64,000 bases of DNA, taken from assembly GCA_947503275.1 (NCBI GenBank), contig CANNCZ010000002.1:1459501-1523500 (forward strand), read 5' to 3'. Below are positions 17,699 through 29,312 of this stretch, piece by piece. The notes beneath the pieces were generated by a model. The model searched no databases. It saw only the letters and a list, made by a program, of their open reading frames with translations, and was not told where the DNA came from. Position numbers and translations under genes: made by a program. Position 1 is the first letter of the stretch. Each line of letters opens with the position of its first letter. This DNA comes from an uncultured Erythrobacter sp. (lineage in GTDB: Bacteria > Pseudomonadota > Alphaproteobacteria > Sphingomonadales > Sphingomonadaceae).

Positions 17699-18376
17699 AT
17701 GATCCTAAGCATCAATGCGATCCAAGACCCGCAGAAGATCACCAATCTGCGCGAACAGTTGAAGTCGTTGAACTGGCAGGATGGACGCGCGACGGCCGGG
17801 TCTGTTGCGCGCGAAGTAAAGCGCAATGAGCAAGCCGTTATGAGCGATGATGCGGGCAAGGCCATGCGCGAGATATTGGTGCCGATCATTGCGGAAAATT
17901 CGGTGGTGAAAGCGGCCGCGAGGCCACGTCATATCTCTGTGCCCATGATCAGCCGCACCGCCGATGGTGGGCATTACGGCGCGCATGTCGACAATGCTTT
18001 GATGGGAACCGGTAGCGCCCGAATGCGCAGCGACCTCGCCTTCACATTGTTCCTCAATCAGCCGGATGAATATGAGGGCGGGGAGCTTGTGGTGCACGCC
18101 ACTGGCATGACGCAAACGATCAAAGGGAAAGCGGGCGAATTGGTGCTTTATCCCGCCACCAGCATCCACGAAGTGCGGCCTGTTACGTCAGGCGAGCGGA
18201 TTGTGTGCGTAGGGTGGATTGAAAGTCTGATCCGCGATCCTGTTCAACGCGAATTGCTGTTCGATATGCAGAATATGCGCGCCAATCTGCGCCAAAAACT
18301 GCCAAGCGATTCAAGCGAATTGCTGACCCTGGACAAGACGATAGCCAATCTGATGCGAATGTGGGCGCAGTCTTAG
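17699..18376 (+). CDS. PKHD-type Fe(II)/2-oxoglutarate hydroxylase
   Basis: This 225-residue protein matches the PKHD/PiuC (YbiX) family of Fe(II)- and 2-oxoglutarate-dependent oxygenases. The iron ligands are visible as the HxD pair in YGAHVDNAL (about 97-105) and the distal His in SIHEVRPV (about 160), with the 2-oxoglutarate-binding Arg in GERIVCVGW. Relatives often sit beside TonB-dependent iron receptors and respond to iron; no receptor or clear Fur box lies next to this copy. The substrate is unknown. It is divergent from the lipoprotein gene (82 bases) and convergent with the membrane protein gene (7 bases). Confidence 0.85.
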   Translation: MILSINAIQDPQKITNLREQLKSLNWQDGRATAGSVAREVKRNEQAVMSDDAGKAMREILVPIIAENSVVKAAARPRHISVPMISRTADGGHYGAHVDNALMGTGSARMRSDLAFTLFLNQPDEYEGGELVVHATGMTQTIKGKAGELVLYPATSIHEVRPVTSGERIVCVGWIESLIRDPVQRELLFDMQNMRANLRQKLPSDSSELLTLDKTIANLMRMWAQS

Positions 18377-18383
18377 GGTAGTC

Positions 18384-19100
18384 CTAAGTTGCTTGCTTAG
18401 CGTGGCGTTTGCGGTTCACCTGTAGGGTAAAACCGATGATCAGCGATACGCCCACAATGCTGGGTCCGGCCCAGATCAGCGGGTTGAACACTTCCTCTGG
18501 CACCCAACGGATCAGCCCTACTGACATGAAAGCGGTATAGGCCGAAATTCCCATGCCAATGAGCGCGCGAAAATGCTCTCCGACATAGGCACGCGGGGAG
18601 GGCGGCGAACTGCGCCAGATAAACAGTTGTTGGATAGCCATGGCCACCACGCCCAGCGATGCGACTGCGATCATCAGAGGTTCACCGATGCTCAGGCCGT
18701 AATATCCGCAATACAGTGCAGATGCGATCACAGCGACAATAACCAATTGATAGCGCGGGTGACGGAGCGCTGCCGGTTCGCGCGCATGCTTCACAACGCT
18801 TAGCCCGTAATCCGCGAATCCGATTGTTAGCAGTCCAAGATAGAGCATCATCCACCCGAACAAACCGTCGAACAATGCGCGGTCTGTGACGGAGGGGATG
18901 CGTTCTTCCGGCCCGTAAAGCGACAGCAGTGCCATCACCACCGCGAGTGCACCTGCGACCATAAAGCCATAGCACGCCGCGCGGCCCCATTTGCGATGAT
19001 TGCGCGCACCTTTGCGGGTCACAATTGGCCCCCAAAACGCGATTAACCCCGTCAAACCGGCGATCACATGCAGCACAATCAGAGTTTCAAACAGATGCAT
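18384..19100 (-). CDS. Multi-pass membrane protein, possibly DUF2306-like
   Basis: 238 residues with about seven hydrophobic segments (roughly 5-24, 44-62, 80-97, 116-135, 140-160, 172-192 and 205-225). The N-terminus has the pattern LHVIAGLTGLIAFWGP followed by a basic HRKWGR loop, which resembles DUF2306-type and related redox-associated membrane proteins, but this is tentative. Conserved His residues (His10, His35) near the membrane border could bind heme or metal. The gene follows the biosynthetic operon end (44-base gap to the Rieske gene stop), but on the same strand and downstream of it, so co-transcription cannot be excluded in that direction. Confidence 0.5.
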   Translation of the reverse strand: MHLFETLIVLHVIAGLTGLIAFWGPIVTRKGARNHRKWGRAACYGFMVAGALAVVMALLSLYGPEERIPSVTDRALFDGLFGWMMLYLGLLTIGFADYGLSVVKHAREPAALRHPRYQLVIVAVIASALYCGYYGLSIGEPLMIAVASLGVVAMAIQQLFIWRSSPPSPRAYVGEHFRALIGMGISAYTAFMSVGLIRWVPEEVFNPLIWAGPSIVGVSLIIGFTLQVNRKRHAKQAT

Positions 19101-19144
19101 TGGCGCGTGATATTATAGGTTTTTGCCGACCCGGCAACATGGCC

Positions 19145-20158
19145 TCACAACATCGCTTTAACGGGGACATCGCTGCCCGCTTCAATCCGCTCTCCGCGCC
19201 ACAATTGGTGCAGGCGCTTGCCCAGAATATCGCCGGGGCCAGAGGTGAATTGGGGGTGGCCGAAATGGGTCATCACGCCATGCTGCTTCTCCAGCGCTCG
19301 GCGATCCTGTCGAACAACGGGCGCAAGGAACAGGCGGATCGCAGCTTGCTTTAGCCATGCAGGCGCGAGGCCCTTTGGCGTCGAGAAACGGGCAAATGGC
19401 GTGAATGTGCCGTCGGTGGCAGGCGTAAAGATCGCGGTGACGCACAGGGTCAGTTTGGTTTCACCCTCCCACCGCGCCTGAACCGTAGCGGGAGTGTAAT
19501 AGCGCGAGATGCTGCGCTCTCGATCCTGTTCCAGAAAGCGCGACATAAGGCCCAGATCCGGCTCCGTCTGCTCAATCACCATGTCGATGCCGTCACCGTA
19601 GGAATTGACGATCAGGTTCACCGGCAGGCGCTTTTCACGGCGGCGGATAAAGCCGTTATGCAGGTGATTGGTGTGGAACGGGTCCATCACATTCTCAATC
19701 GCATCAAACGCGCGGCCCGACCATGTGCCCTGTTGCCACCAGAAATGGTCAAGCGCGGGGTTGGTGAAATCGGGTGGCAGGGGCGGCTGCGCAGGCGCAG
19801 TGTCTGACAGGCTGACAAAGATTGCTCCGTGCCCCTCCCACACGCGAAGAGCATCGGCGTTTAGCCGCTTGTCGCCCTGCGTTTCCACCATGCAACCGGG
19901 CACCGCAGCGCATGCGCCATCGGGTTTAAACCGCCACCCGTGATAAGGGCACTCGAGCGCGCCTTTGTGCACTCGGCCTTCGGAGAGCGGGTAATTGCGA
20001 TGCGGACAGCGATCAATCAACGCACCCAACCCAGCTTCGCTGCGGAAAAGGGCAATGGGAGTGTTGCAGAGCGTCACCTTACGCACCGCACCGCGTTTCA
20101 CATCGCGTGACAATGCGATCATGTGCCAGGCCGACGATACTGCTTCAGGAAAGCTCAT
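19145..20158 (-). CDS. Rieske non-heme iron oxygenase (last gene of the biosynthetic operon)
   Basis: The N-terminal Rieske domain binds a [2Fe-2S] cluster through CPHR (Cys51, His53) and CPYHGW (Cys70, His73). The catalytic domain has the bridging Asp159 and the iron ligands His162 and His167 in DPFHTNHLH; the third ligand should be a later Asp. It resembles the alpha subunits of Rieske monooxygenases that act on small or cyclic substrates (choline, sterol or phytanoyl-type oxygenases). Start ATG 20158 overlaps the ATP-grasp stop by 4 bases (ATGA), so it belongs to the six-gene operon. No reductase or ferredoxin gene is present nearby, so electrons must come from elsewhere. Confidence 0.85.
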   Translation of the reverse strand: MSFPEAVSSAWHMIALSRDVKRGAVRKVTLCNTPIALFRSEAGLGALIDRCPHRNYPLSEGRVHKGALECPYHGWRFKPDGACAAVPGCMVETQGDKRLNADALRVWEGHGAIFVSLSDTAPAQPPLPPDFTNPALDHFWWQQGTWSGRAFDAIENVMDPFHTNHLHNGFIRRREKRLPVNLIVNSYGDGIDMVIEQTEPDLGLMSRFLEQDRERSISRYYTPATVQARWEGETKLTLCVTAIFTPATDGTFTPFARFSTPKGLAPAWLKQAAIRLFLAPVVRQDRRALEKQHGVMTHFGHPQFTSGPGDILGKRLHQLWRGERIEAGSDVPVKAML

Positions 20159-21318
20159 GTTTCCAACTCCTCGCCATTCCATTCGATGTCATAGGTTGTT
20201 GCGTCGCTCGTTGAGATTGCATGTTTGAAGCCCTTGACCGTAAACGCAATGCTGTCGGCGATGGCACCTGCAAATGGCAGGCGGTCTCCGGGTTGAGAGA
20301 TCACGTCGCGGCCCTTTTCGATAGTTTCTCGCCATCGCGCCAATTCGCCGTTTGCAAGGGCGTGAGGTAGTCCAAGGCCGAGCATTGCAGGGCCAAGATA
20401 GCCGGGTTTTGCGCTCTGATCTGGCGCAGATATCCCTTCACCAATTGCGCAGGCGAGATGTCCGTCTCCGGCGAGCAAGTGCACGCCGCTCGTCGCGCGA
20501 GGATTGCATTCTATGAGATACGCATGGCCTCTATCATCAATCATCACATCGCAACCGAATTGGCCATGAATGCTGGCCGATTGGGCAAGACGCCGTGCGA
20601 TTGTGCGCAAGGGTTCTGCTTCTGCTTGGGGCAACGGCTCAAACGCATAGGCCGCACCGCCGGAAAGCCGCCACTTGGATCGATAGGCCGCAAAGCCAAC
20701 AAGATCGCCGTGATGTGCAACACCATGAAAGCAAACCTCTTCGCCGCGGATTAGCTTTTGTGCCATCCAACGGTTTTGTGCGTCCGGTGTGATTTGCGTG
20801 AGTCGGCTGGCATCCGGTCCGATCAGAGTGCTGCCTCCAAAGCGTCCAAACCGAGGCTTGAACACCCATTGCTCGCTGGTCTCCGAGAAACCCTGAAGCT
20901 CGCTTTTGTCAGCGATCGCATGGCTCTCTGGCAAAGTCAGACCCCACTGACCTGCCGCTTTGGCAAAGGCAAATTTGTCGTGAAGCACACGCAGCATCAC
21001 GAAGTCAGGTGAATACAGCCGTTCACCCAGAGTGCCGTGCAATCCGGGAGCGGCAAGGTGGAACACCTCCTCACATGTCGGCACAATCAGATCGATCCGA
21101 TACTCATCGACCAATTGCACAATCCGCGCGCGAAACTCTGCGCCGTCATGCCGGGGTGAGGGATAGGCGTGATGATGCGCGGCCAATGAAGACCAGCGCG
21201 CCAATCGTGAACGCACACTATCGACGCAATGCACAACCCATCCCGCAGCGGCAAAATCACGCGCTAAATCTAGTGCAGCAGCGGCTCGCGCGCCGGTGAT
21301 CAGAACGCTTCTAGCCAT
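20155..21318 (-). CDS. ATP-grasp ligase
   Basis: The N-terminal ~100 residues form a Rossmann-like pre-ATP-grasp domain (ARSVLITGARAAAALDLA). The ATP-binding core includes WVFKPRFGRFGGSTLI (about 155) and the late metal-binding segment YLIECNPRATSGVHLL (about 275-290), as in carbamoyl-phosphate-synthase-like and D-Ala-D-Ala-like ligases. ATP-grasp enzymes join a carboxylate to an amine, thiol or hydroxyl through an acyl phosphate. Start ATG 21318 lies 8 bases inside the previous gene's end, and its own stop overlaps the Rieske gene. Peptide or amide ligation of a pathway intermediate is the natural inference; the partner amine is unknown. Confidence 0.85.
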   Translation of the reverse strand: MARSVLITGARAAAALDLARDFAAAGWVVHCVDSVRSRLARWSSLAAHHHAYPSPRHDGAEFRARIVQLVDEYRIDLIVPTCEEVFHLAAPGLHGTLGERLYSPDFVMLRVLHDKFAFAKAAGQWGLTLPESHAIADKSELQGFSETSEQWVFKPRFGRFGGSTLIGPDASRLTQITPDAQNRWMAQKLIRGEEVCFHGVAHHGDLVGFAAYRSKWRLSGGAAYAFEPLPQAEAEPLRTIARRLAQSASIHGQFGCDVMIDDRGHAYLIECNPRATSGVHLLAGDGHLACAIGEGISAPDQSAKPGYLGPAMLGLGLPHALANGELARWRETIEKGRDVISQPGDRLPFAGAIADSIAFTVKGFKHAISTSDATTYDIEWNGEELET

Positions 21319-22540
21319 CGGCCCATACCACCTTGCGGCGCTTTGGCTGTGACCACGGGGGCAGGTCTTGAGCAAGGCGCACGGTTTGCCCAGTCAAATC
21401 GCTAAGCGCATCGACGGCTCGGCTCGCGAGGGTTTGCGAAATGAGTGATCCGGTTCGCAAAGTGACCGAGCTTGGCGAGGCGACAGCTTGCCAATGCGAA
21501 GGAGCGCTCAGCTGCGCCTCGACACATTCGACCACTTGCACAGGCGTTACCGTCCGATCGCCAAAGCGCCAGACATCAGTGATGCGCCCCTGCGGTGGAT
21601 GGATTACGCGACCGGCATTGCCGCACGGGCAAGGTTGCGGATCAATCTCAACATAATCATCCGCGCGCAGGCGCACGATAGGCTGACTGACGCGGTGCAA
21701 ATCGGTGATGATCAGGCGAAAGCCCTGAGTTCGGGGGACAGGCTCGAGCTCGAACTCAATGCTGTGCTCGTTGAGATGCAGCCTGCCGCGTTCACATTCT
21801 GCGCCCAAAAAACCCTCAGTCGCCTGAAAAATTGAGCGCGGATGCAAGCCAAAGGCATCCGTCACGAACGCGGTTTCCGCTGGGCTTATTGGCTCACTTC
21901 CGCAGAACAGATGGCGCAGGGAAGACAGGCGCAATCCGGCTTTTGCAAAGGCAATCAGCCGGTGCGGAGGCGCAATCACAATAGTGGGATCGAACTGAGC
22001 GAGCGCGTCCACCGTCTCTTGAGCAGAGCGTTCGAGCGGGAAATGCGCAAAGGTGAAACGACCCGTTTTAACATCGCTGTACAGCGCATTGCTCGCCCGC
22101 AAATGCAAGGCAAGCCGCTGCCGCTTTAACAATGCGCGAGCAGGCAAAAGCCGCGCGAGGCTTTGTCCGATATAATCCGCGCGCTCTTTGCCATTGGCGA
22201 CAAACAAGCCGCGCACAGCCCTGCTGCTACCGGTGGACCAACCTGCGCTCAGATCACCGCGTGCTGTGCCATTCTCCGCCGCATCGCCCAGCGTGCGCAG
22301 TGCGTCATCCGTCATATCCAAACTGTTCCACGCGCCGTAATCACTGCGCACCGTCCCAGGGTCGGTGATCGGATATTCAGTCAACGGCCTGCCATGATAC
22401 GCAGCCAATGCTGGCGTCCGGGCAAGAGCAGGTTGTAACCGCGTCCAAGCACGCGCGCGCCCTTGCCGCAATTGCTCGGCAGAGAAGCGCATAGCCCGCT
22501 TGGTCCGAAACCAAGACGCGATGGTGGCGGCCCGCTGCAT
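21311..22540 (-). CDS. PaaK-like adenylate-forming enzyme (F390-synthetase-related)
   Basis: A 409-residue single-domain-type ANL enzyme. The phosphate-binding loop is GWSTGSSRAVRG (about 100-111), the A5-like motif is FQATEGFLGAE (about 228), and a Cys-containing ADDYVEIDPQPCPCGNAG segment (about 284-303) matches the PaaK and coenzyme F390 synthetase group. A C-terminal Lys-rich PKRRKVVW could supply the catalytic lysine. Members adenylate a carboxylate, often for transfer to CoA or another nucleophile; the related uncharacterised family is sometimes named aden_form_hyp. The start ATG 22540 shares one base with the MBL gene stop (TGATG), while the longer open frame upstream lies in the MBL gene. 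Confidence 0.8.
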   Translation of the reverse strand: MQRAATIASWFRTKRAMRFSAEQLRQGRARAWTRLQPALARTPALAAYHGRPLTEYPITDPGTVRSDYGAWNSLDMTDDALRTLGDAAENGTARGDLSAGWSTGSSRAVRGLFVANGKERADYIGQSLARLLPARALLKRQRLALHLRASNALYSDVKTGRFTFAHFPLERSAQETVDALAQFDPTIVIAPPHRLIAFAKAGLRLSSLRHLFCGSEPISPAETAFVTDAFGLHPRSIFQATEGFLGAECERGRLHLNEHSIEFELEPVPRTQGFRLIITDLHRVSQPIVRLRADDYVEIDPQPCPCGNAGRVIHPPQGRITDVWRFGDRTVTPVQVVECVEAQLSAPSHWQAVASPSSVTLRTGSLISQTLASRAVDALSDLTGQTVRLAQDLPPWSQPKRRKVVWADG

Positions 22541-23379
22541 CAGTCCTGCACAAGCGTCTTTGCACTGGCGCGGCAATGCGATGGCAGGATCGCAAGGTCG
22601 CGATTATTGGCCGCAGCACTGCTGAGCAGATCGAGTGTCGCGCGGTATTTGCGGGTGTTGCCTAGCAAAGCGGTAGTGATGCGCGGGGGTGGGCGGCGTT
22701 CTGTGATTGATCGCCCCTGCCACACGGCATCGGCGGCTAGCAGCACGGATTGCCCCTGCTGCGTCGTAAAGGCGAGGCCCCAATGCCCCGCGCAATGGCC
22801 GGGAAGCTCAACCGCCAGCAAGCTGCCATCGCCAAGAATATCGCGCCCTTCGGTAAACGGCGCAAATTCTGTGGGGAGCGAGCACGCGCGCGCGTTTTCA
22901 AAAAACTGTGCATGGGCATCGACCTCGTCTGGAACCAGAGCGGACAACAGACCTTGCCGGACCCGGCCAAACCGTCCGGGCTTGCGCAATTCTTCAAGGC
23001 CAGCGCGTGCGCAGAATACCGGTTTGTTCGCCAGATTGCGCATCCCTGCGACATGGTCACCGTGGAAATGCGAGATGATCGTGCCCGCAATCGCCGCCTC
23101 TTCGATGCCATGCGCACCCAACCAGCTTTGCCAGTGCTGATCCGCTTCGATCTCAATCGGAGTGGTCCAGCGATAAAGGCGTTCAGGAAACGGCTCGGTC
23201 GCCTGATTGAAGGCGGGGTCATAGCCGGTGTCGAACAGGAATATGCCGCGCACGGGGTGCTCGATCACACCGACAAGCGCGGGAAAATCGACTGAGCACA
23301 GGCTACCGCCCTTGATCACCATCCCCTCTGGATGGCTGCACGATCCGCGCTCCAACCAGCGAAACCCAACACGAGTCAT
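22540..23379 (-). CDS. Metallo-beta-lactamase-fold hydrolase
   Basis: 279 residues with the MBL metal motif SHFHGDHVAG (His104, His106, Asp108, His109), a third-ligand segment LPGHCAGHWG (about 194-203) and the bridging Asp in LLAADAVW (about 217). It resembles quorum-quenching lactonases and related esterases or thioesterases of the fold; the gene lacks a signal peptide, so the enzyme is cytoplasmic. Its ATG (23379) overlaps the SDR stop by 4 bases, and its stop overlaps the next gene by one base. In the operon it could hydrolyse a thioester, lactone or ester intermediate. Confidence 0.85.
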   Translation of the reverse strand: MTRVGFRWLERGSCSHPEGMVIKGGSLCSVDFPALVGVIEHPVRGIFLFDTGYDPAFNQATEPFPERLYRWTTPIEIEADQHWQSWLGAHGIEEAAIAGTIISHFHGDHVAGMRNLANKPVFCARAGLEELRKPGRFGRVRQGLLSALVPDEVDAHAQFFENARACSLPTEFAPFTEGRDILGDGSLLAVELPGHCAGHWGLAFTTQQGQSVLLAADAVWQGRSITERRPPPRITTALLGNTRKYRATLDLLSSAAANNRDLAILPSHCRASAKTLVQD

Positions 23380-24383
23380 GCGGCATTTTCCTGTGCGGCA
23401 AGAGCGCGCGCCTGCTCTAACAGCGTAGCCAGCGCATCATATCGGGGCTCGTATCCGAGCAAACGTTGCGCGGGTTCTGGATCGAAAGTTTGCGAATAGC
23501 CAAGGGTCGCCAGCGTGTAGCGGGTGAGCACTGGCTCTTTGCTTGACCCGGTCAAACTTGCGATCCGCTCCATGACATTGGCGAGTATATGCGCCGCACC
23601 AAGGGGGATGTTCACCAGTTTTGGCGAAGTGCCCAACGCGTCCGCCAATTGCAGCGCGATGTCGCGCACTGTGTGGGGCTGGCCGCCTGATATGTTGATC
23701 GCGCGTCCGGCGATTTTCTCCGCGCGTTCCTCCGCCTCGCAAATCGCATCTGCCGCATCGCGTAGGTCTGTCAGCTCAATCAGCGCCTCCCCGCCGCGCG
23801 GCAATGGCATGCGTTTGCGGCGCGCCAGTTCAGCGAGTTTGGGCAAGATCACCCGGTCGCCATCTCCGACCAAAGCGCGCGGACGGATCGCGCAACAGGC
23901 GAGCGTCTTTGTGCTAGCGGCGAGAACGTCGCGTTCAGCGGCAAGCTTGGTCTGCGCATAGAAATTAAGCGGGGTAGAGTTAGGCGGGGCGTGTTTTCCG
24001 ATGCCGATGCGGTCTTTGAGGCTGGCAAAGATTGACGGTGATGACACGAATACGAACCGGGCAACACAATGCTCCTGGGATGCCTCGATCAAGCGGCGAG
24101 TTGCATCGACATTTGCGCTTTCAAAGGCGGCGCGCGGGCCCCAGCTGGCAGAGAGTGCGGCGGCGTGGATTACGCTGTCGGAGCCTTCGACGAGCGCTGA
24201 CATTGCGTCAGCACACTCAAGATCGAAGGGCACAAACTCAGCGCCCAGAGTACGCAATTCCTCGCCCGCCGCGACCGAGCGCCCGGTTGCGCGCACGGCG
24301 TGATCGCGCCCGATAGCTTCGCGGACCAAGGCTTTGCCAAGCCCGCCGGTTGCGCCGGTGATAAGGATGCGGCGCTGGCTCAC
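23376..24383 (-). CDS. NAD(P)-dependent epimerase/dehydratase family reductase (3-beta-HSD-like)
   Basis: 335 residues with the Rossmann motif ILITGATGGLGKALV (about 5-19), an active-site FYAQTKLAAERD (Tyr/Lys pair, about 140) and a C-terminal substrate-binding half. It resembles extended SDRs of the 3-beta-hydroxysteroid dehydrogenase type, the same group as OleD, which reduces a beta-keto acid formed by OleA. Coupling with the KAS III gene (ATG at 24383, stop-start overlap ATGA) makes reduction of the condensation product a reasonable inference, not a demonstrated one. Confidence 0.8.
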   Translation of the reverse strand: MSQRRILITGATGGLGKALVREAIGRDHAVRATGRSVAAGEELRTLGAEFVPFDLECADAMSALVEGSDSVIHAAALSASWGPRAAFESANVDATRRLIEASQEHCVARFVFVSSPSIFASLKDRIGIGKHAPPNSTPLNFYAQTKLAAERDVLAASTKTLACCAIRPRALVGDGDRVILPKLAELARRKRMPLPRGGEALIELTDLRDAADAICEAEERAEKIAGRAINISGGQPHTVRDIALQLADALGTSPKLVNIPLGAAHILANVMERIASLTGSSKEPVLTRYTLATLGYSQTFDPEPAQRLLGYEPRYDALATLLEQARALAAQENAA

Positions 24384-25375
24384 AGGCAGATCACCATGGC
24401 GCTGGCGCTGATCCCGGCAGCGGTGCCGAGCAACAGTATTGTATCGCCCGGTTTGGCGGCCTCTGTATCAAGCGCATGGGCCAGCACTGTCGGGATAGAT
24501 GCCGCGATCTGGTTGCCGGTCGTTGAAAAAATGTCGACAACCCGCTCTGGACGCGGCTCGAACAAGCGCCGCACATGTTCGACGCCGGGCGCGCTGGCCT
24601 GGTGGCAAATGATGCAATCGAGATCATCGCGAGTGATGTTCGCGTCGACGAGCGCGCGCTCAATTACCGGCGGAAGCGCTTTGGCAGCCGCTTTGAAAAT
24701 ACCGAATGCGTCCATTTCGAAGTAAGAGCCTGCGACCAGAGCCTCATGCCCTTCGCTAACGCGCAGCCGCGTGCCTCCGGATCGCAATTGCGCGAGTTCG
24801 TGGTGCGCGCCATGCGTAACGCTGGCGAAGGATAGCATGCCGCGTGTGCCATCATTCGTGGCTTCAATCGCCAGAGCAGCGGCGCCGTCGCCGAAAATTG
24901 ACCGGGTTTTCGCGAGAGCGGGATTGAGGCCCGCAGAGGCAATGTCGCTGGCAAAGACCAGAGCGCGCCTCCAACGACCAGTCGCAATCCCCATCGCCGC
25001 GATATCCAACGCTGTGACAAAGGAGAGGCAGGTTTGGTTCACGTCAAAACATGGCACGCCGGAGCCGCTAAGGCCCAGCCTGTCTTGCACCAAAGTGGCT
25101 GTTGAAGGGATCGGTTGTTCCATCACGCCGCACGCGCCGATGATTACATCTGGTGGCGTGTTGCCCCATCCGGCGCTGTCCAAAGCCTCACGCGCGGCCT
25201 CTGCTGCCATCATAGATGTCGTTTCTTGAGCATTCGCGACATGACGCGATGCGATGCCAAACTCGCTTTGAGTCCAGCCGTCTTCCAGCCCGTGTCGCGC
25301 GTCCAGCTCCGCTGAACTCAGCACAGTTTGTGGGCGATACGCGCCCCATCCCGACATTGTGAAATTGCTGATCAA
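24380..25375 (-). CDS. 3-oxoacyl-ACP synthase III family condensing enzyme
   Basis: 331 residues with the thiolase fold catalytic triad Cys116 (VNQTCLSFV), His258 (IICHQAS) and Asn288 (TTGNQIAASIP). The family includes FabH and OleA-type enzymes that join acyl thioesters by Claisen condensation. The gap-free neighbours and absence of fatty acid genes point to a specialised rather than primary role. The first codon is TTG at 25375, supported by GGAG eight bases upstream; the alternative ATG at 25357 lacks a ribosome-binding site. A TATAAG -10-like element (25398-25403, minus strand) and the operator pair lie just upstream. It is the first gene of the six-gene operon. Confidence 0.85.
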   Translation of the reverse strand: MISNFTMSGWGAYRPQTVLSSAELDARHGLEDGWTQSEFGIASRHVANAQETTSMMAAEAAREALDSAGWGNTPPDVIIGACGVMEQPIPSTATLVQDRLGLSGSGVPCFDVNQTCLSFVTALDIAAMGIATGRWRRALVFASDIASAGLNPALAKTRSIFGDGAAALAIEATNDGTRGMLSFASVTHGAHHELAQLRSGGTRLRVSEGHEALVAGSYFEMDAFGIFKAAAKALPPVIERALVDANITRDDLDCIICHQASAPGVEHVRRLFEPRPERVVDIFSTTGNQIAASIPTVLAHALDTEAAKPGDTILLLGTAAGISASAMVICL

Positions 25376-25414
25376 ACCATCATCTCCACTTGATTCGCTT
25401 ATACACTCTCATGG

Positions 25415-25455
25415 AATTAAACAGTGTTCAATTAAAAAATAGACAATGTTCAATT
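25415..25455. promoter_or_regulatory. Two tandem operator-like palindromes between operon and TetR gene
   Basis: Site 1 (25415-25433) reads AATTAAACAGTGTTCAATT, a nearly perfect 19-bp palindrome with half-site AATTGAACA. Site 2 (25437-25455) keeps the same right half TGTTCAATT with a weaker left half. Centres are 22 bp apart, two helical turns, so two dimers would bind the same face. The sites lie in the 101-base divergent gap, just upstream of the TATAAG of the biosynthetic operon and just before the TetR ATG. They are the natural target of the adjacent TetR regulator. Confidence 0.6.
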
Positions 25456-25476
25456 TATGCTTTATCCACCATCATC

Positions 25477-26088
25477 ATGGGAAGGCGCTCAGATCATAGT
25501 CCGGATGAATTGCGCGAATTGCTGGTATTGTCCGGCCATGCCCTGATGGGAGAGCGCGGCTTTGCGAAGTTTTCTGCTCGCGAAGCCGCTCGGCGAGCAG
25601 GCTATTCAGTTGGCACAATCTACAATGTGTTTGGTGGGCTCGACCAATATTTAATCGCCATCAACAGTCGCACATTCCACGAATGGAGCGCATGGCTAGA
25701 GGCTGCATTGATCGACGCACCAAGAGACCGGGCAGGGCGCATCGAAGCTTTGGTGCGCGCCTATTTTGGCTTTGCGCAGAACAATCAGAACATCTGGATG
25801 GCGATATATGACCACCGGATCGACCGCTCGATTGAAATCGCCTCAGAGGATGATGCGGCTCGCGAAGGCCTAACCAGCATTGTCGACCGCGAAGTCGCAA
25901 GCACGCTGGGCCTGAACGACAGTGACGCTCGGCGGCTCGTGCGTTCTTTGATCGCGACCGTGCATGGCCATTGCGCACTTTGGCTAACCGGCAGCTATGC
26001 CCTGTTGGAGGAGAAAGATCCGGCGGGCCAAGCGGTCGACCGCGTACTCGAAATCCTCACCCATCATTTGACGCCGTCTGAAAGCTGA
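25477..26088 (+). CDS. TetR-family transcriptional regulator
   Basis: About 203 residues from ATG 25477 (MGRRSDHSPDEL). The N-terminal helix-turn-helix has FSAREAARRAGYSVGTIYNVF (about 30-52), followed by a helical ligand-binding domain with FAQNNQNIWMAIYDHR resembling the WHG-type C-terminal domain of TetR proteins. The frame is open back to 25390, but that extension would place the operators inside coding DNA, so the internal ATG is chosen. It is divergent from the six-gene operon and probably represses it and itself until a small molecule or acyl-CoA releases it. Its last 25 bases overlap the convergent CoA-transferase gene. Confidence 0.88.
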   Translation: MGRRSDHSPDELRELLVLSGHALMGERGFAKFSAREAARRAGYSVGTIYNVFGGLDQYLIAINSRTFHEWSAWLEAALIDAPRDRAGRIEALVRAYFGFAQNNQNIWMAIYDHRIDRSIEIASEDDAAREGLTSIVDREVASTLGLNDSDARRLVRSLIATVHGHCALWLTGSYALLEEKDPAGQAVDRVLEILTHHLTPSES

Positions 26089-27254
26089 TCGCCGCGCAAT
26101 CGCCGCTTTTCCTCTTCAGTGTGTTGGCCAAGCAAGGGCGCGCCCTCTTGCGCCGGTGTTTGCCAATCGGAAAACCGGCTCGCATCACTCATTTCATAAA
26201 TCGAGCCTTCGGTCGGGTGTTCGCGGCGCTCGAAAAAGCCAGTGGCCGCGAGGTGCGGATCGTTCAGAATATCGTCGATATCGCGCGAGGGCATGCAGAT
26301 TACACCCGATTGGCGCAAGGTCGTGACCCAATGCTCGGTCGTTTGCGCAGGCGTGTGCTTGGCGATCTCCTTATACAACAACGGCACATTTGCTCTGCGC
26401 CCCTCCGGCGTATCCAAAGGCTCCTTGCTCAACAGTTCTGACGCACCGAAAGCATCGAACAAAGTGATCCAATCGCTGTCCATATAGGGCACCAAAGCGA
26501 TGTAGCCGTCCTTGGTCGGGAAAGGCTGGCGGTCGGGATCAACTTGACGTGAATAAAGCAACGGGCCGGATGGCGGATCGAAGGTTTTGCCGGCCAAGTG
26601 ATCTTTCAGCATGAAATGAGCGAAACTCTCAAACATGGGCACTTCGACAAATTGCCCGCGCCCGGTGCGCAATTTGTGGATCACAGCGGCCATGGTCGCA
26701 TAGACCGCGTTCAGCCCCGCAACCTTATCCGCGATCAACGATGGCATATAGCGCGGGCGCGGATCGCCATCGACGCGGCAAGCCAGGCTCGGCGCGCCAA
26801 CCGCCGCCTGGATCACGTCATCATAGGCTGGCAGGTTGGCATAAGGGCCATCGGAGCCAAACCCGACACAATGCACATAGATGATGCCCGGATTGAACGC
26901 TTTGACATCGCCATAACCAAGCCCGAGCCGCTGGATCGCTTCATCGCGGATGTTGTGAACGAAGATATCCGTTTCCCCGATCAGCTTTCGCATCACATCA
27001 GCATCATCTGGGTCCTTGAGATCGAGAGCGACCGACTTCTTGCCCCGGTTGAGCGTCATATGCATCGGGCTCATGCCAGCGGTCTTCGCAGACTTCGCCG
27101 TGTGCCGCGCCGCATCGCCGATTGTCGGTTCAACCTTGATCACCTCAGCCCCGTAATCGGCGAGCACCTGTGTCGCGTATGGGCCAAAGACCACGCTGCT
27201 TAGGTCAACGACTTTGACGCCGGTTAGCATGGGTGCGGGATTATCGAGCGGCAA
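26064..27254 (-). CDS. Class III (CaiB/BaiF) CoA transferase
   Basis: 396 residues with the CaiB/BaiF signatures VVDLSSVVFGPYATQVLADYGAEVIKVE near the N-terminus (residues 15-42) and the catalytic Asp in LPAYDDVIQA (about 165). These enzymes transfer CoA between carboxylic acids, typically in degradation of carnitine, oxalate, bile acids or aromatic acids. The TTG at 27254 is selected because AGGAG lies 8 bases upstream; the downstream ATG at 27230 has no ribosome-binding site. It is the last gene of a three-gene set with the SnoaL-like protein and a Rieske oxygenase, which suggests catabolism of an unidentified ring or acid compound. Confidence 0.88.
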   Translation of the reverse strand: MPLDNPAPMLTGVKVVDLSSVVFGPYATQVLADYGAEVIKVEPTIGDAARHTAKSAKTAGMSPMHMTLNRGKKSVALDLKDPDDADVMRKLIGETDIFVHNIRDEAIQRLGLGYGDVKAFNPGIIYVHCVGFGSDGPYANLPAYDDVIQAAVGAPSLACRVDGDPRPRYMPSLIADKVAGLNAVYATMAAVIHKLRTGRGQFVEVPMFESFAHFMLKDHLAGKTFDPPSGPLLYSRQVDPDRQPFPTKDGYIALVPYMDSDWITLFDAFGASELLSKEPLDTPEGRRANVPLLYKEIAKHTPAQTTEHWVTTLRQSGVICMPSRDIDDILNDPHLAATGFFERREHPTEGSIYEMSDASRFSDWQTPAQEGAPLLGQHTEEEKRRLRGDQLSDGVK

Positions 27255-27292
27255 TGGCTTTGCTCCTGAGAGGGTCAGCCATGACTATCGGA

Positions 27293-27811
27293 TCAGGCGT
27301 TGACGTTGGCAAGATGCGCATAGGACGCATCATCGCGCCCGCGTACGCCATAGACGCTGGGGTTACCTGGATCATCCCGGTCCCACCCATCGGTGCAAGG
27401 CTGGGTGCTGTTCCAGTCATAGATCGCGTGGCGGTGGCTGACTTTCCAATCCTCATCGCGCCTTTCAAAACTATCGAGATACCGTCCAGCTGCGATCATC
27501 AGCACATCGCCATCAGGCGTTTTGATGGTGTGATGCGCGACGAAGTAACTCTCCCCCGCTGCCCGGTCGCCATCCACTTCGATCAGCGATTGTCCGATCA
27601 CATGCTGAGTGCGCTCCATCGTCGCGAGCAACGGCATGACCCAAGTGATAAATTCCTCCGCAGTCCCTTTGAACAGGCCATGATCATCGGTTGCATCGGG
27701 ATGGAAACAGGCGCGCACCATATCCGCGTCGCAACGGTCGATCCCTTTCGCCATGCGGGCAACCAGTTCGGCACATTCAAGCTTGTCAGCCGTGATTTCG
27801 AGGCGGTTCAC
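27293..27811 (-). CDS. NTF2/SnoaL-like family protein
   Basis: A 172-residue single-domain protein of the NTF2-like alpha+beta cone fold. The pattern MAKGIDRCDADMVRACFHPDATDDHG (about 20-45) and the later AAGRYLDSFERRDEDWKVSHRHAIYDW are typical of the SnoaL-like group found as small beta subunits or isomerase-like partners. GTG at 27811 is preferred because AGGAG precedes it by 7 bases; the longer frame begins in the previous gene's stop region. With the adjacent Rieske alpha subunit it could be the small subunit of a ring-hydroxylating oxygenase, or a separate cyclase/dehydratase. Confidence 0.75.
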   Translation of the reverse strand: MNRLEITADKLECAELVARMAKGIDRCDADMVRACFHPDATDDHGLFKGTAEEFITWVMPLLATMERTQHVIGQSLIEVDGDRAAGESYFVAHHTIKTPDGDVLMIAAGRYLDSFERRDEDWKVSHRHAIYDWNSTQPCTDGWDRDDPGNPSVYGVRGRDDASYAHLANVNA

Positions 27812-27836
27812 TGCGCGTCTCCTCACTCTCAAGCGC

Positions 27837-29174
27837 TTAACGCGCCATCCAATCTTCAAGCGTCTCATGGAAATACCGCATCCGGCTTTCCTGCGATGCG
27901 AGATAGTCGCGTTTGTAACCGCGCGAATGGAGGCCGCGTTGTTGCTGAGGCCAGATCTCCAGATCCTCGTCGATAGCCGGGCCTGTTGTGACCTCGTGAT
28001 CTTTGCCCTGCATGTGCGGGACGACGGTTTCCGTCGAAATCGTGTCGCCCATCACATAGGAATAATATTCGGTCTGTCCTTTGGCGAACAACACCATGAA
28101 CCACATGTCGAACAGGCACTTTTCGGGGTCGCTAGGATGCGGACGCGCGCGCAGCCAGATATTGCTTTCCGGCTTCAGGCTGAACGAGAGGTTGGGAAAG
28201 ATCGTGTAGTGCCAATTATCGGTCAGCTGATCGTCGTGATAGGATGAAAAATCATACCCCTTTGCCTCGCCCAGCTTGCGTTTCGCCCGCTGTAGATCCT
28301 TGCGAATATTGCGGGTCTTGCCACCTTCGTAATCGGCCGGATCAAGCTCCCAAAACTCCAGCTCTTTCGCCATCCTTTCAAGCGTTTCTTTCTCGCCGCC
28401 TTTGACTGCCGCGGCAGGCCCACCGCCCGGCATCAGCATACGACAATGCCCTTCGGAGTAATGATCGAACTGGCAATCTTCGCGTCCGTATTCGAGCGTG
28501 AATTTCGCATCCGGATGGACAAATGGGACGTGATAGCTTTCGCTGAAATTGTCCTGCACCAGTTTCCAGTTGAAATCCCCTTCGACGGTCACCCAATGGG
28601 TGCGCCGGAATTCTTGCATTGGATAGGTGTCGATCTGATCCGCAATCGGGCCGAGATAGTCGCGCAAAGGGGCGCAATCATCGTCCATATTGTACCAGAC
28701 AAAGCCCGCCCAAACCTCTGACTTCATCTCAACCAGATTGAGTTTGCCGCACGGGCTGCCTTGCTCAAAATCTGCTTCGTCAGGCACGAATTTGAGGGTG
28801 CCTTTCAAGTCGTAAGTCCATGCGTGATAGGGGCAAGTCAGCCGCTTTTCATTGCCGCACTCATCTTTCATCAGCTCCAGTCCGCGGTGCTGGCAGACAT
28901 TGTAGAAAACGCGGATTTGGTCGTCATCGCCGCGCACACACAAGATGCGCTCCGTGCCGAGCGTTGTGGTGGTGTAATCGCCAATATTCGCCAACTCGCT
29001 TTCAAGACAGGCGATTTGCCAGGTTTTGGTCCAAACCGTGTCCCATTCGCGCTCCATCCATTCCTTTGAGAAATAGCGTTCCGGTGTGATCGGTTGATTG
29101 CGCAGATTGGGTTCGGGTTGCTTGGTCAAGTCGGCCAATTGCCGATTCACTTCGCCAGGATCGTAATCCGCCAT
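27837..29174 (-). CDS. Aromatic-ring-hydroxylating-type Rieske oxygenase alpha subunit
   Basis: 445 residues. The Rieske motif is CQHR (Cys94, His96) and CPYHAW (Cys114, His117); the mononuclear iron site is in DNFSESYHVPFVHP with Asp, Glu and two His. The large insert between the catalytic segments and the length fit alpha subunits of ring-hydroxylating dioxygenases or phytanoyl/carnitine-type oxygenases. With the SnoaL-like gene 25 bases on and the CoA transferase after it, it forms a catabolic-looking operon. The substrate cannot be inferred from sequence. Confidence 0.88.
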   Translation of the reverse strand: MADYDPGEVNRQLADLTKQPEPNLRNQPITPERYFSKEWMEREWDTVWTKTWQIACLESELANIGDYTTTTLGTERILCVRGDDDQIRVFYNVCQHRGLELMKDECGNEKRLTCPYHAWTYDLKGTLKFVPDEADFEQGSPCGKLNLVEMKSEVWAGFVWYNMDDDCAPLRDYLGPIADQIDTYPMQEFRRTHWVTVEGDFNWKLVQDNFSESYHVPFVHPDAKFTLEYGREDCQFDHYSEGHCRMLMPGGGPAAAVKGGEKETLERMAKELEFWELDPADYEGGKTRNIRKDLQRAKRKLGEAKGYDFSSYHDDQLTDNWHYTIFPNLSFSLKPESNIWLRARPHPSDPEKCLFDMWFMVLFAKGQTEYYSYVMGDTISTETVVPHMQGKDHEVTTGPAIDEDLEIWPQQQRGLHSRGYKRDYLASQESRMRYFHETLEDWMAR

Positions 29175-29312
29175 AGTGTCCTCGTTGCGATGGGTCTCGG
29201 TCTTGCGAAACGTGCGCTATCATCGGCGATCTTCGGCCGCAGGCACACTAGCATCTTTGTCGAGGGTGTGAGTGTCTAGTCGGGGCGGCGTTCGGTTGCG
29301 CTGCACCGCAGC

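Follow-up and report, generated by a model that had tools for sequence, protein, structure and literature searches.

The described systems closest to the operon reported here are the PqsABCDE series, the olefin-type OleABCD pathway and the ketosynthases MxnB and CorB of myxopyronin and corallopyronin biosynthesis. The operon lies on the minus strand, at positions 25375-19145, of a 64,000-nucleotide stretch of DNA (hereafter the window) from an uncultured Erythrobacter sp. (GenBank assembly GCA_947503275.1, contig CANNCZ010000002.1, positions 1,459,501 to 1,523,500). It consists of six open reading frames (ORFs) in the order ketoacyl synthase (KAS) III-type condensing enzyme, short-chain dehydrogenase/reductase (SDR), metallo-beta-lactamase (MBL)-fold hydrolase, PaaK-like adenylating enzyme (hereafter the ligase), ATP-grasp ligase and Rieske oxygenase. 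Within the Pqs series, PqsE has an MBL fold. The series resembles the window operon in having a CoA ligase, a FabH-type KAS and a dedicated thioesterase followed by oxidation, but the passages of PMC6204780 consulted on it describe no SDR, ATP-grasp or Rieske enzyme, and the order of action may differ. OleABCD shares with the window operon a KAS III fold, an OleD-like SDR (197 bits against a curated cut-off of 580) and an adenylating enzyme, whereas the window KAS is without the glutamate base and the window operon adds an ATP-grasp ligase and a Rieske oxygenase. The nearest solved chains of the window KAS are 4v2p (E 1.4e-45), an entry named just 'ketosynthase' which we take to be MxnB, and CorB (4yuc, E 2e-43). 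These two also have no glutamate at the OleA position, as given in PMC4578411, but they serve modular polyketide synthase (PKS) lines, whereas the window operon has no PKS or acyl carrier protein (ACP). Comparison across bacteria reveals that the conserved unit is a four-gene core of KAS, SDR, MBL hydrolase and ligase. The window operon is best read as this core combined with one of two alternative tailoring sets (set A). It would be one form of a cassette dedicated to biosynthesis, whose beta-hydroxyacyl, lipid-like product would be re-activated and decorated.

When named genomes were scanned with a ligase alignment of nine rows, at least 589 relatives were obtained; the best 80 of these at least 589 loci were analysed, with partners counted within 7.5 kb. 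Because the loci were picked by similarity to the window ligase, the counts describe its nearer relatives only. Selected by the adenylating enzyme alone, the 80 loci carried a KAS in 74 cases, an SDR in 78 and an MBL hydrolase in 78, with all three in 73; three of the six loci without KAS (L046, L053 and L065) are cut upstream by a contig end. Other partners near the ligase were ATP-grasp (40/80), Rieske (29/80), PAP2 (21/80), FemX-like (18/80), fatty-acid hydroxylase (17/80), TetR (15/80) and desaturase (11/80) genes. The hosts of these best 80 loci include Alpha-, Beta- and Gammaproteobacteria, Bacillota, Bacteroidota and metagenome-assembled genomes (MAGs) labelled cyanobacterium and Eremiobacterota, and the gene order is mostly the same across distant bacteria. 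A tblastn search of plasmids with the ligase matched 45 records, and the core stood beside the ligase in all six that were opened, from Ketogulonicigenium, Pontibacillus, E. coli, Novosphingobium (with the same six-gene set), Paracoccus and Roseateles. In addition, a close copy of the operon, with 61% ligase identity, is present in a genome labelled Halomonas, a gammaproteobacterium by its label. As a control, 398 Proteobacteria genomes were searched with flanks of only about 1.5 kb for strong and weak matches alike. All ten strong TIGR02304 matches (own genome included) adjoined an SDR and an MBL gene, and none of the 14 weak PaaK-like matches (59-94 bits) had any partner. Among 14 named control genomes including E. 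coli, a TIGR02304 match was found only in Deinobacterium. The distances among the operon genes are congruent (r 0.83-0.97, reached by 0 of 200 permutations), a result that is not counted as proof of function because common descent alone would yield it. The earlier note on this DNA, made from the sequence alone, had treated all six genes as a unit and proposed a search for the same gene order in other Sphingomonadales. The set does recur there, in the Novosphingobium plasmid, and its spread reaches far beyond that order; what is conserved as a unit is the four-gene core, and the ATP-grasp and Rieske genes are one of two alternative tailoring sets. The earlier note would have given up the single pathway had the genes never co-occurred; instead they are found side by side in only distantly related bacteria, for the most part in the same order and with intact active sites.

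The two tailoring sets exclude each other in the loci analysed. The ATP-grasp and fatty-acid hydroxylase genes shared a locus in none of the 80, occurred singly in 40 and 17, and were both missing from 23; about 8.5 joint loci would be expected if the two were independent, a comparison that is no formal test as the loci are interrelated. Set A consists of the ATP-grasp gene, accompanied by a FemX-like gene in 17 of 40 loci and a Rieske gene in 28 of 40. Set B consists of the hydroxylase, weakly like the ornithine-lipid hydroxylase OlsE, accompanied by PAP2 in 16 of 17 loci and a desaturase in 10 of 17. One locus, L069, has an ATP-grasp gene with PAP2. The FemX-like gene (for example L061 11438-12568) stands with ATP-grasp in 17 of its 18 loci and its product has no Pfam or NCBIfam match. 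A predicted model of the protein from 16 rows (mean predicted local distance difference test score, pLDDT, 90.4) has the FemX/MprF tandem-GNAT fold, and Foldseek agrees. The model aligns with FemX 4ii9 (Z 16.0, root-mean-square deviation (rmsd) 3.9, 270 aligned), with the aminoacyl-tRNA-dependent peptide synthase Sbb17 9wqw (Z 15.7, rmsd 3.5, 247 aligned) and with MprF 7duw (Z 14.8, rmsd 3.8, 253 aligned). This hints that some set A products may bear an aminoacyl part, although fold likeness alone does not establish function. A glycosyltransferase gene (EryCIII-like/Rgt-like) was also seen downstream of the core in L072, L073, L074 and L082, which are Hyphomonadaceae and Rhodobacterales MAGs, and two of the four were checked by family search. 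An annotated sulfotransferase gene lies beside the divergent TetR gene in a Ketogulonicigenium plasmid (L005 3587-4600) and a Paracoccus plasmid (L009 3456-4529).

The E. coli version of the cassette contains seven genes in 6.9 kb. It has the same four-gene core in the same order as the window operon, but carries PAP2, a sterol-desaturase-type hydroxylase and a desaturase instead of the ATP-grasp and Rieske genes. A match was found in 672 of 5,426 complete E. coli genomes, with at least 80% of the query covered in 671 of the 5,426, and some of the listed strains are labelled ST131. In the record of an E. coli KE48 plasmid (L007 5206-12087), the seven genes sit between narI and purU.

The six window genes overlap one another throughout, as the earlier note had said of genes joined on one strand by stop-start overlaps of 1 to 8 bases. 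Read off the DNA, with starts fitted to homologues, the junctions are GTGA between KAS and SDR (4-base overlap), ATGA between SDR and MBL (4 bases), TGATG between MBL and ligase (1 base), ATGGCTAG between ligase and ATP-grasp (8 bases) and ATGA between ATP-grasp and Rieske (4 bases). No fusions among the core enzymes were seen in the scanned ORFs. Families were assigned with NCBIfam models and their curated cut-offs, Pfam and the nearest solved chains by sequence, and none of the six window proteins reaches the curated cut-off of its best NCBIfam model. The family calls of the earlier note are nevertheless correct, with matches to ACP_syn_III, Epimerase, Lactamase_B, TIGR02304, ATP-grasp_3/PRK06849 and Rieske plus VanA_C, respectively. 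Residue conservation was counted in relatives from loci L005-L090, in window numbering; the catalytic roles of the conserved motif residues in the core enzymes and the Rieske oxygenase are general knowledge. Since these residues are conserved, the operon enzymes look active.

The KAS gene (24380-25375, minus strand) has a TTG start, and its product scores 313 bits to PRK07204 (cut-off 402). The E. coli KAS, with 333 bits, is also below the cut-off and the Pontibacillus KAS, with 445, passes it. Cys116, His258 and Asn288 are kept in 80 of 80 relatives. PMC4578411 identifies the catalytic glutamate as Glu105 of PpyS and Glu117 of OleA and gives valine at this position in MxnB/CorB. The matching position, aligned on the invariant Pro90, is isoleucine in 53 of 80 relatives and leucine in 27 (Ile89 in the window protein), which speaks against deprotonation of a plain acyl chain and makes a nucleophile of the malonyl or beta-keto type more likely. 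A separate FabH proper (403 bits) is encoded at C1:466615-467577 of the same genome, so the operon KAS is taken as a dedicated copy. A third KAS III-like gene was seen at C1:1325049-1325876 (G000), with 141 bits to the fabH model. The SDR (23376-24383, minus strand) is an extended, OleD-like ketoreductase in which Tyr142 and Lys146 are kept in 82 of 82 relatives; its best NCBIfam model is OleD and its Pfam match Epimerase. The MBL-fold hydrolase (22540-23379, minus strand) has a full two-metal site, with H104, H106, D108, H109, H195, D217 and H268 kept in 84 of 84 relatives. It is nearest to 4-pyridoxolactonase both by NCBIfam model (56 bits, cut-off 325) and by solved chain.

The ligase, a PaaK-like, 'F390 synthetase-related' adenylating enzyme (21311-22540, minus strand; ATG 22540 preferred over a longer ORF to 22576), scores 155 bits to TIGR02304 (cut-off 251.9). 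The E. coli and Bacillus (L080) ligases pass with 755 and 545 bits, so the window protein is a divergent relative. Its Pfam AMP-binding match is under Pfam's own cut-off, and its nearest solved chains are AjiA1 and PaaK-like ligases. E254, D307, C261, H267, C316 and C318 are kept in 86 of 86 relatives and K412 in 83 of 83. The ATP-grasp ligase (20155-21318, minus strand; ATG 21318 preferred over a longer ORF to 21375) is best matched by PRK06849, a 'hypothetical protein' model (273 bits, cut-off 406; Pontibacillus, with 339, also below), and no solved chain was matched by sequence search. A predicted model of this protein (pLDDT 96.0) has the ATP-grasp fold, in agreement with Foldseek matches, and aligns with GAR synthetase 2xcl (Z 26.0, rmsd 3.5, 318 aligned), PurK 3v4s (Z 25.6, rmsd 3.7, 324 aligned), PylC 4ffr (Z 23.3, rmsd 3.4, 294 aligned) and L-amino-acid ligase 3vot (Z 22.0, rmsd 4.3, 322 aligned). 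The Rieske oxygenase (19145-20158, minus strand) starts at ATG 20158, which gives the 4-base overlap, in an ORF open to 20182. Its best NCBIfam model is 4beta-methylsterol monooxygenase (64 bits, cut-off 600) and its nearest solved chains are SxtT and dicamba demethylase. The 2Fe-2S ligands C59, H61, C78 and H81 are present in 30 of 30 relatives and the iron ligands H170, H175 and D293 in 31 of 31.

A TetR-family regulator gene lies divergent from the operon on the plus strand (25477-26088, ATG 25477, ORF open from 25390), where the earlier note had placed it. Its product is best matched by a FasR-like NCBIfam model and, like FasR-like regulators, is encoded divergently from a condensing-enzyme operon, but with 38.5 bits it is far under the curated cut-off of 330. 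Two imperfect operator-like palindromes of the form TTGAACANTGTTCAA lie in the 101-base gap that separates the KAS start from the TetR start, at 25417-25431 (one mismatch) and, 22 bases away, at 25439-25453 (three mismatches). The whole window contains 5 palindrome matches at this tolerance against 1.67 expected from shuffles. Related sites were scanned in 17 TetR-bearing loci with KAS on the plus strand, over 250 bases upstream of KAS or overlapping its longest ORF. Two or more sites (at least 10/14) were found in 13 of the 17 (L005, L008, L009, L012, L013, L017-L023 and L083) and a single site in the other four (L014, L015, L024 and L025). The pairs are spaced 22-23 bases in sphingomonad loci and 53-55 in L005, L009 and L083.

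Taken together, it is almost certain that the operon encodes one single dedicated pathway and very likely that this pathway is biosynthetic. The cassette probably makes a modified fatty-acid-like product. The substrates, the product class and the TetR binding are what we infer, and the order of steps, namely condensation, reduction, hydrolysis, re-activation, ligation and oxidation, is proposed tentatively, with an even chance or slightly less of being right. In this scheme Cys116 of the KAS would receive an acyl thioester supplied by fatty-acid metabolism, and decarboxylative condensation with a malonyl thioester would extend it to a beta-ketoacyl thioester, the keto group of which would be reduced to a hydroxyl by the OleD-like SDR. 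The MBL enzyme would cleave the thioester to a free beta-hydroxy acid, and the PaaK-like enzyme would turn this acid into an acyl-AMP for transfer to a thiol, amine or alcohol. The ATP-grasp ligase would then attach an amino-acid-like partner and the Rieske oxygenase would oxidise the product. TetR would be released from the two operators by a signal molecule, which might be an acyl-CoA or the product itself. In favour of this reading are the co-occurrence of the core genes in named genomes and on plasmids, the conserved catalytic residues, the isoleucine or leucine at the glutamate position of the KAS, the separate FabH, the FemX/MprF fold of the extra set A protein and the repeated operator-like sites upstream of KAS. 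OleD, the nearest SDR model, is a 3-keto-acid reductase and is also counted in favour. A long-chain product is favoured by the fatty-acid hydroxylase, desaturase and PAP2 partners of other versions, and the recurrence of partners that act on acyl chains or hydroxyls (hydroxylase, desaturase, glycosyltransferase in four loci and sulfotransferase in two plasmid loci) supports the same reading.

Several observations weigh against this reading. The operon has no ACP gene, and among 86 loci ACP-like small ORFs were found in two only (L009, beside a nonribosomal peptide synthetase, and L015, doubtful). Calling the MBL enzyme a 'thioesterase' is a guess, because MBL enzymes are diverse in the reactions they catalyse and the models closest to this one describe lactonases. 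Aromatic acids are frequent substrates of PaaK-like ligases. The ATP-grasp model matches its superfamily broadly, with other families scoring as high as or higher than amino-acid ligases, and singles out no substrate. A search of the window's genome for the FemX-like gene, the hint of aminoacylation, found no match, an empty result that alone proves nothing; the ATP-grasp and Rieske enzymes thus seem to act here without a FemX-like protein. As for the regulator, TetR is not universal: a TetR gene was found close to 15 of 80 loci, and 13 of the 28 loci that combine ATP-grasp and Rieske genes have one. Four of 100 shuffles reach 5 palindrome matches, so the window count is weak alone; the recurrence of the operator-like sites in other loci says more, yet it is a description and not a blind test because the consensus was drawn from the same loci in which it was counted.

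An alternative that is possible, if on the doubtful side, puts the ligase first. The PaaK-like enzyme would load an unusual acid, aromatic or amino, in thioester form. Extension with malonyl by the KAS, reduction by the SDR and release by the MBL enzyme as a thioesterase would follow, and the ATP-grasp and Rieske enzymes would complete the product, in this case a small signalling or antibiotic molecule instead of a long-chain lipid. The closest solved relatives of the ligase are PaaK-like enzymes, which leaves room for an aromatic starter, and SxtT and dicamba demethylase, nearest to the Rieske protein, act on small ring compounds. PqsA (CoA ligase), PqsD (FabH type) and PqsE (thioesterase) form a ligase-first series of this kind (PMC6204780). 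However, the hydroxylase, desaturase and PAP2 partners elsewhere indicate long acyl chains, and the SDR is OleD-like.

A catabolic or detoxifying operon, in which the lactonase-like MBL enzyme, the CoA-ligase-like enzyme and the Rieske oxygenase would degrade a compound sensed by TetR, is improbable. Degradation pathways commonly include Rieske oxygenases and CoA ligases, the MBL enzyme is nearest to 4-pyridoxolactonase and acyl-homoserine lactone lactonases, and a CoA-transferase and a ring-hydroxylating dioxygenase adjoin the operon region. However, the condensing KAS and the ATP-grasp ligase belong to synthesis, and the core recurs without the Rieske gene, which 51 of the 80 loci lack. An olefin-type (OleABCD) pathway is more improbable still. 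The resemblance of the SDR to OleD speaks for it, but isoleucine or leucine replaces the KAS catalytic glutamate in 80 of 80 relatives, which argues against an olefin-type head-to-head condensation, and OleA entries score far lower than 4v2p and CorB, the solved chains closest to the window KAS. The hydrolase of the operon has an MBL fold, whereas OleB belongs to the alpha/beta hydrolases. Membership in OleABCD was therefore rejected on the KAS glutamate position, the SDR score (197 vs 580 bits) and the Lactamase_B rather than OleB-type hydrolase. That unrelated genes are neighbours by chance is practically negligible, as nothing was found in its favour and a conserved set recurs in mostly conserved order across distant phyla. 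A role in anti-phage defence was also considered and rejected, PADLOC matching none of the six proteins at E 0.001.

The enzyme families are all known; their combination, their spread and the two-set architecture appear undescribed. Literature searches under family-model names and descriptive terms, with subscription papers, preprints and supplements outside their scope, found no description of the cassette or of the E. coli seven-gene cluster among the titles and abstracts listed; an Acinetobacter transcriptome paper (PMC5501837) contains the term 'F390 synthetase' four times. The NCBIfam models nearest the KAS (PRK07204), the adenylating enzyme (TIGR02304) and the ATP-grasp ligase (PRK06849) carry no pathway function. 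These results fit the view of the earlier note, which did not recognise the combination as a named pathway. Whether the cassette represents a previously undescribed, phylum-crossing class of small non-modular pathways is evenly balanced. In such a class the core would make a reduced, re-activated acyl unit from which exchangeable modules would build various lipids or signals. One branch would ligate or aminoacylate this unit and oxidise it with the Rieske enzyme, and the other would hydroxylate and desaturate it; the branch seen in enterobacteria is present in about one-eighth of complete E. coli genomes. If this is true, one short gene signature flags an overlooked metabolite family in Erythrobacter-type bacteria, Xenorhabdus, relatives of Bacillus and E. 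coli, including ST131-labelled strains. Two mutually exclusive tailoring sets on one core would be a natural experiment from which to work out the chemistry, and at about 6.2 kb, with a regulator of its own, the window operon is short enough for direct expression and testing.

The location of the operon was compared with that of its counterparts in related genomes. The interval from the membrane-protein gene at 18384-19100 to tRNA-Val(CAC) measures 10.2 kb in the window (19101-29312) against 2.8-2.9 kb in three same-genus genomes without the operon (G001, G003 and G011), in which the flanking genes and the tRNA are in place and the interval is filled by other DNA. This bears out the earlier description of an accessory-looking region between backbone genes. 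In a fourth same-genus genome without the operon (G004) the left flank is kept and the right flank was not found within the fetched stretch. A search with the ATP-grasp protein matched 4 of 61 relatives, own included, namely 3 of 37 in the genus and one of another family (G038, 32% identity), and the ligase matched in 6 of 298 genomes of the family, own included. G025 is among the same-genus genomes that carry the operon. Among seven other operon-bearing stretches, one (G030) has the left flank of the window and six have none of its flanking genes. The operon appears to be an accessory element able to move from one site to another, given its sparse presence in genus and family, the intact flanks in operon-free genomes, the differing flanks elsewhere and the close copy in the Halomonas-labelled genome. 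Window positions 19101-29312 look like an insertion hot spot. Composition gave no sign of recent foreign DNA (GC 0.601 in the operon, 0.586 in the window); the third-position GC of the ATP-grasp gene, 0.55, is the lowest among 14 genes compared.

The membrane protein encoded at 18384-19100 was considered as a seventh operon member and rejected. Its gene adjoins the gene at 17699-18376 in operon-free same-genus genomes, and none of the 86 related loci (L005-L090) encodes a relative of the protein. As a counterpoint, G038 (C346:2084-5357, L130) carries a distant relative of the ATP-grasp ligase about 1.5 kb from a distant relative of this membrane protein. On the other side of the operon, a family III CoA-transferase gene and a ring-hydroxylating (Rieske) oxygenase gene lie between the TetR gene and tRNA-Val (window 26064-29174), and a search with the CoA-transferase matched 6 of 31 relatives, counting its own genome.

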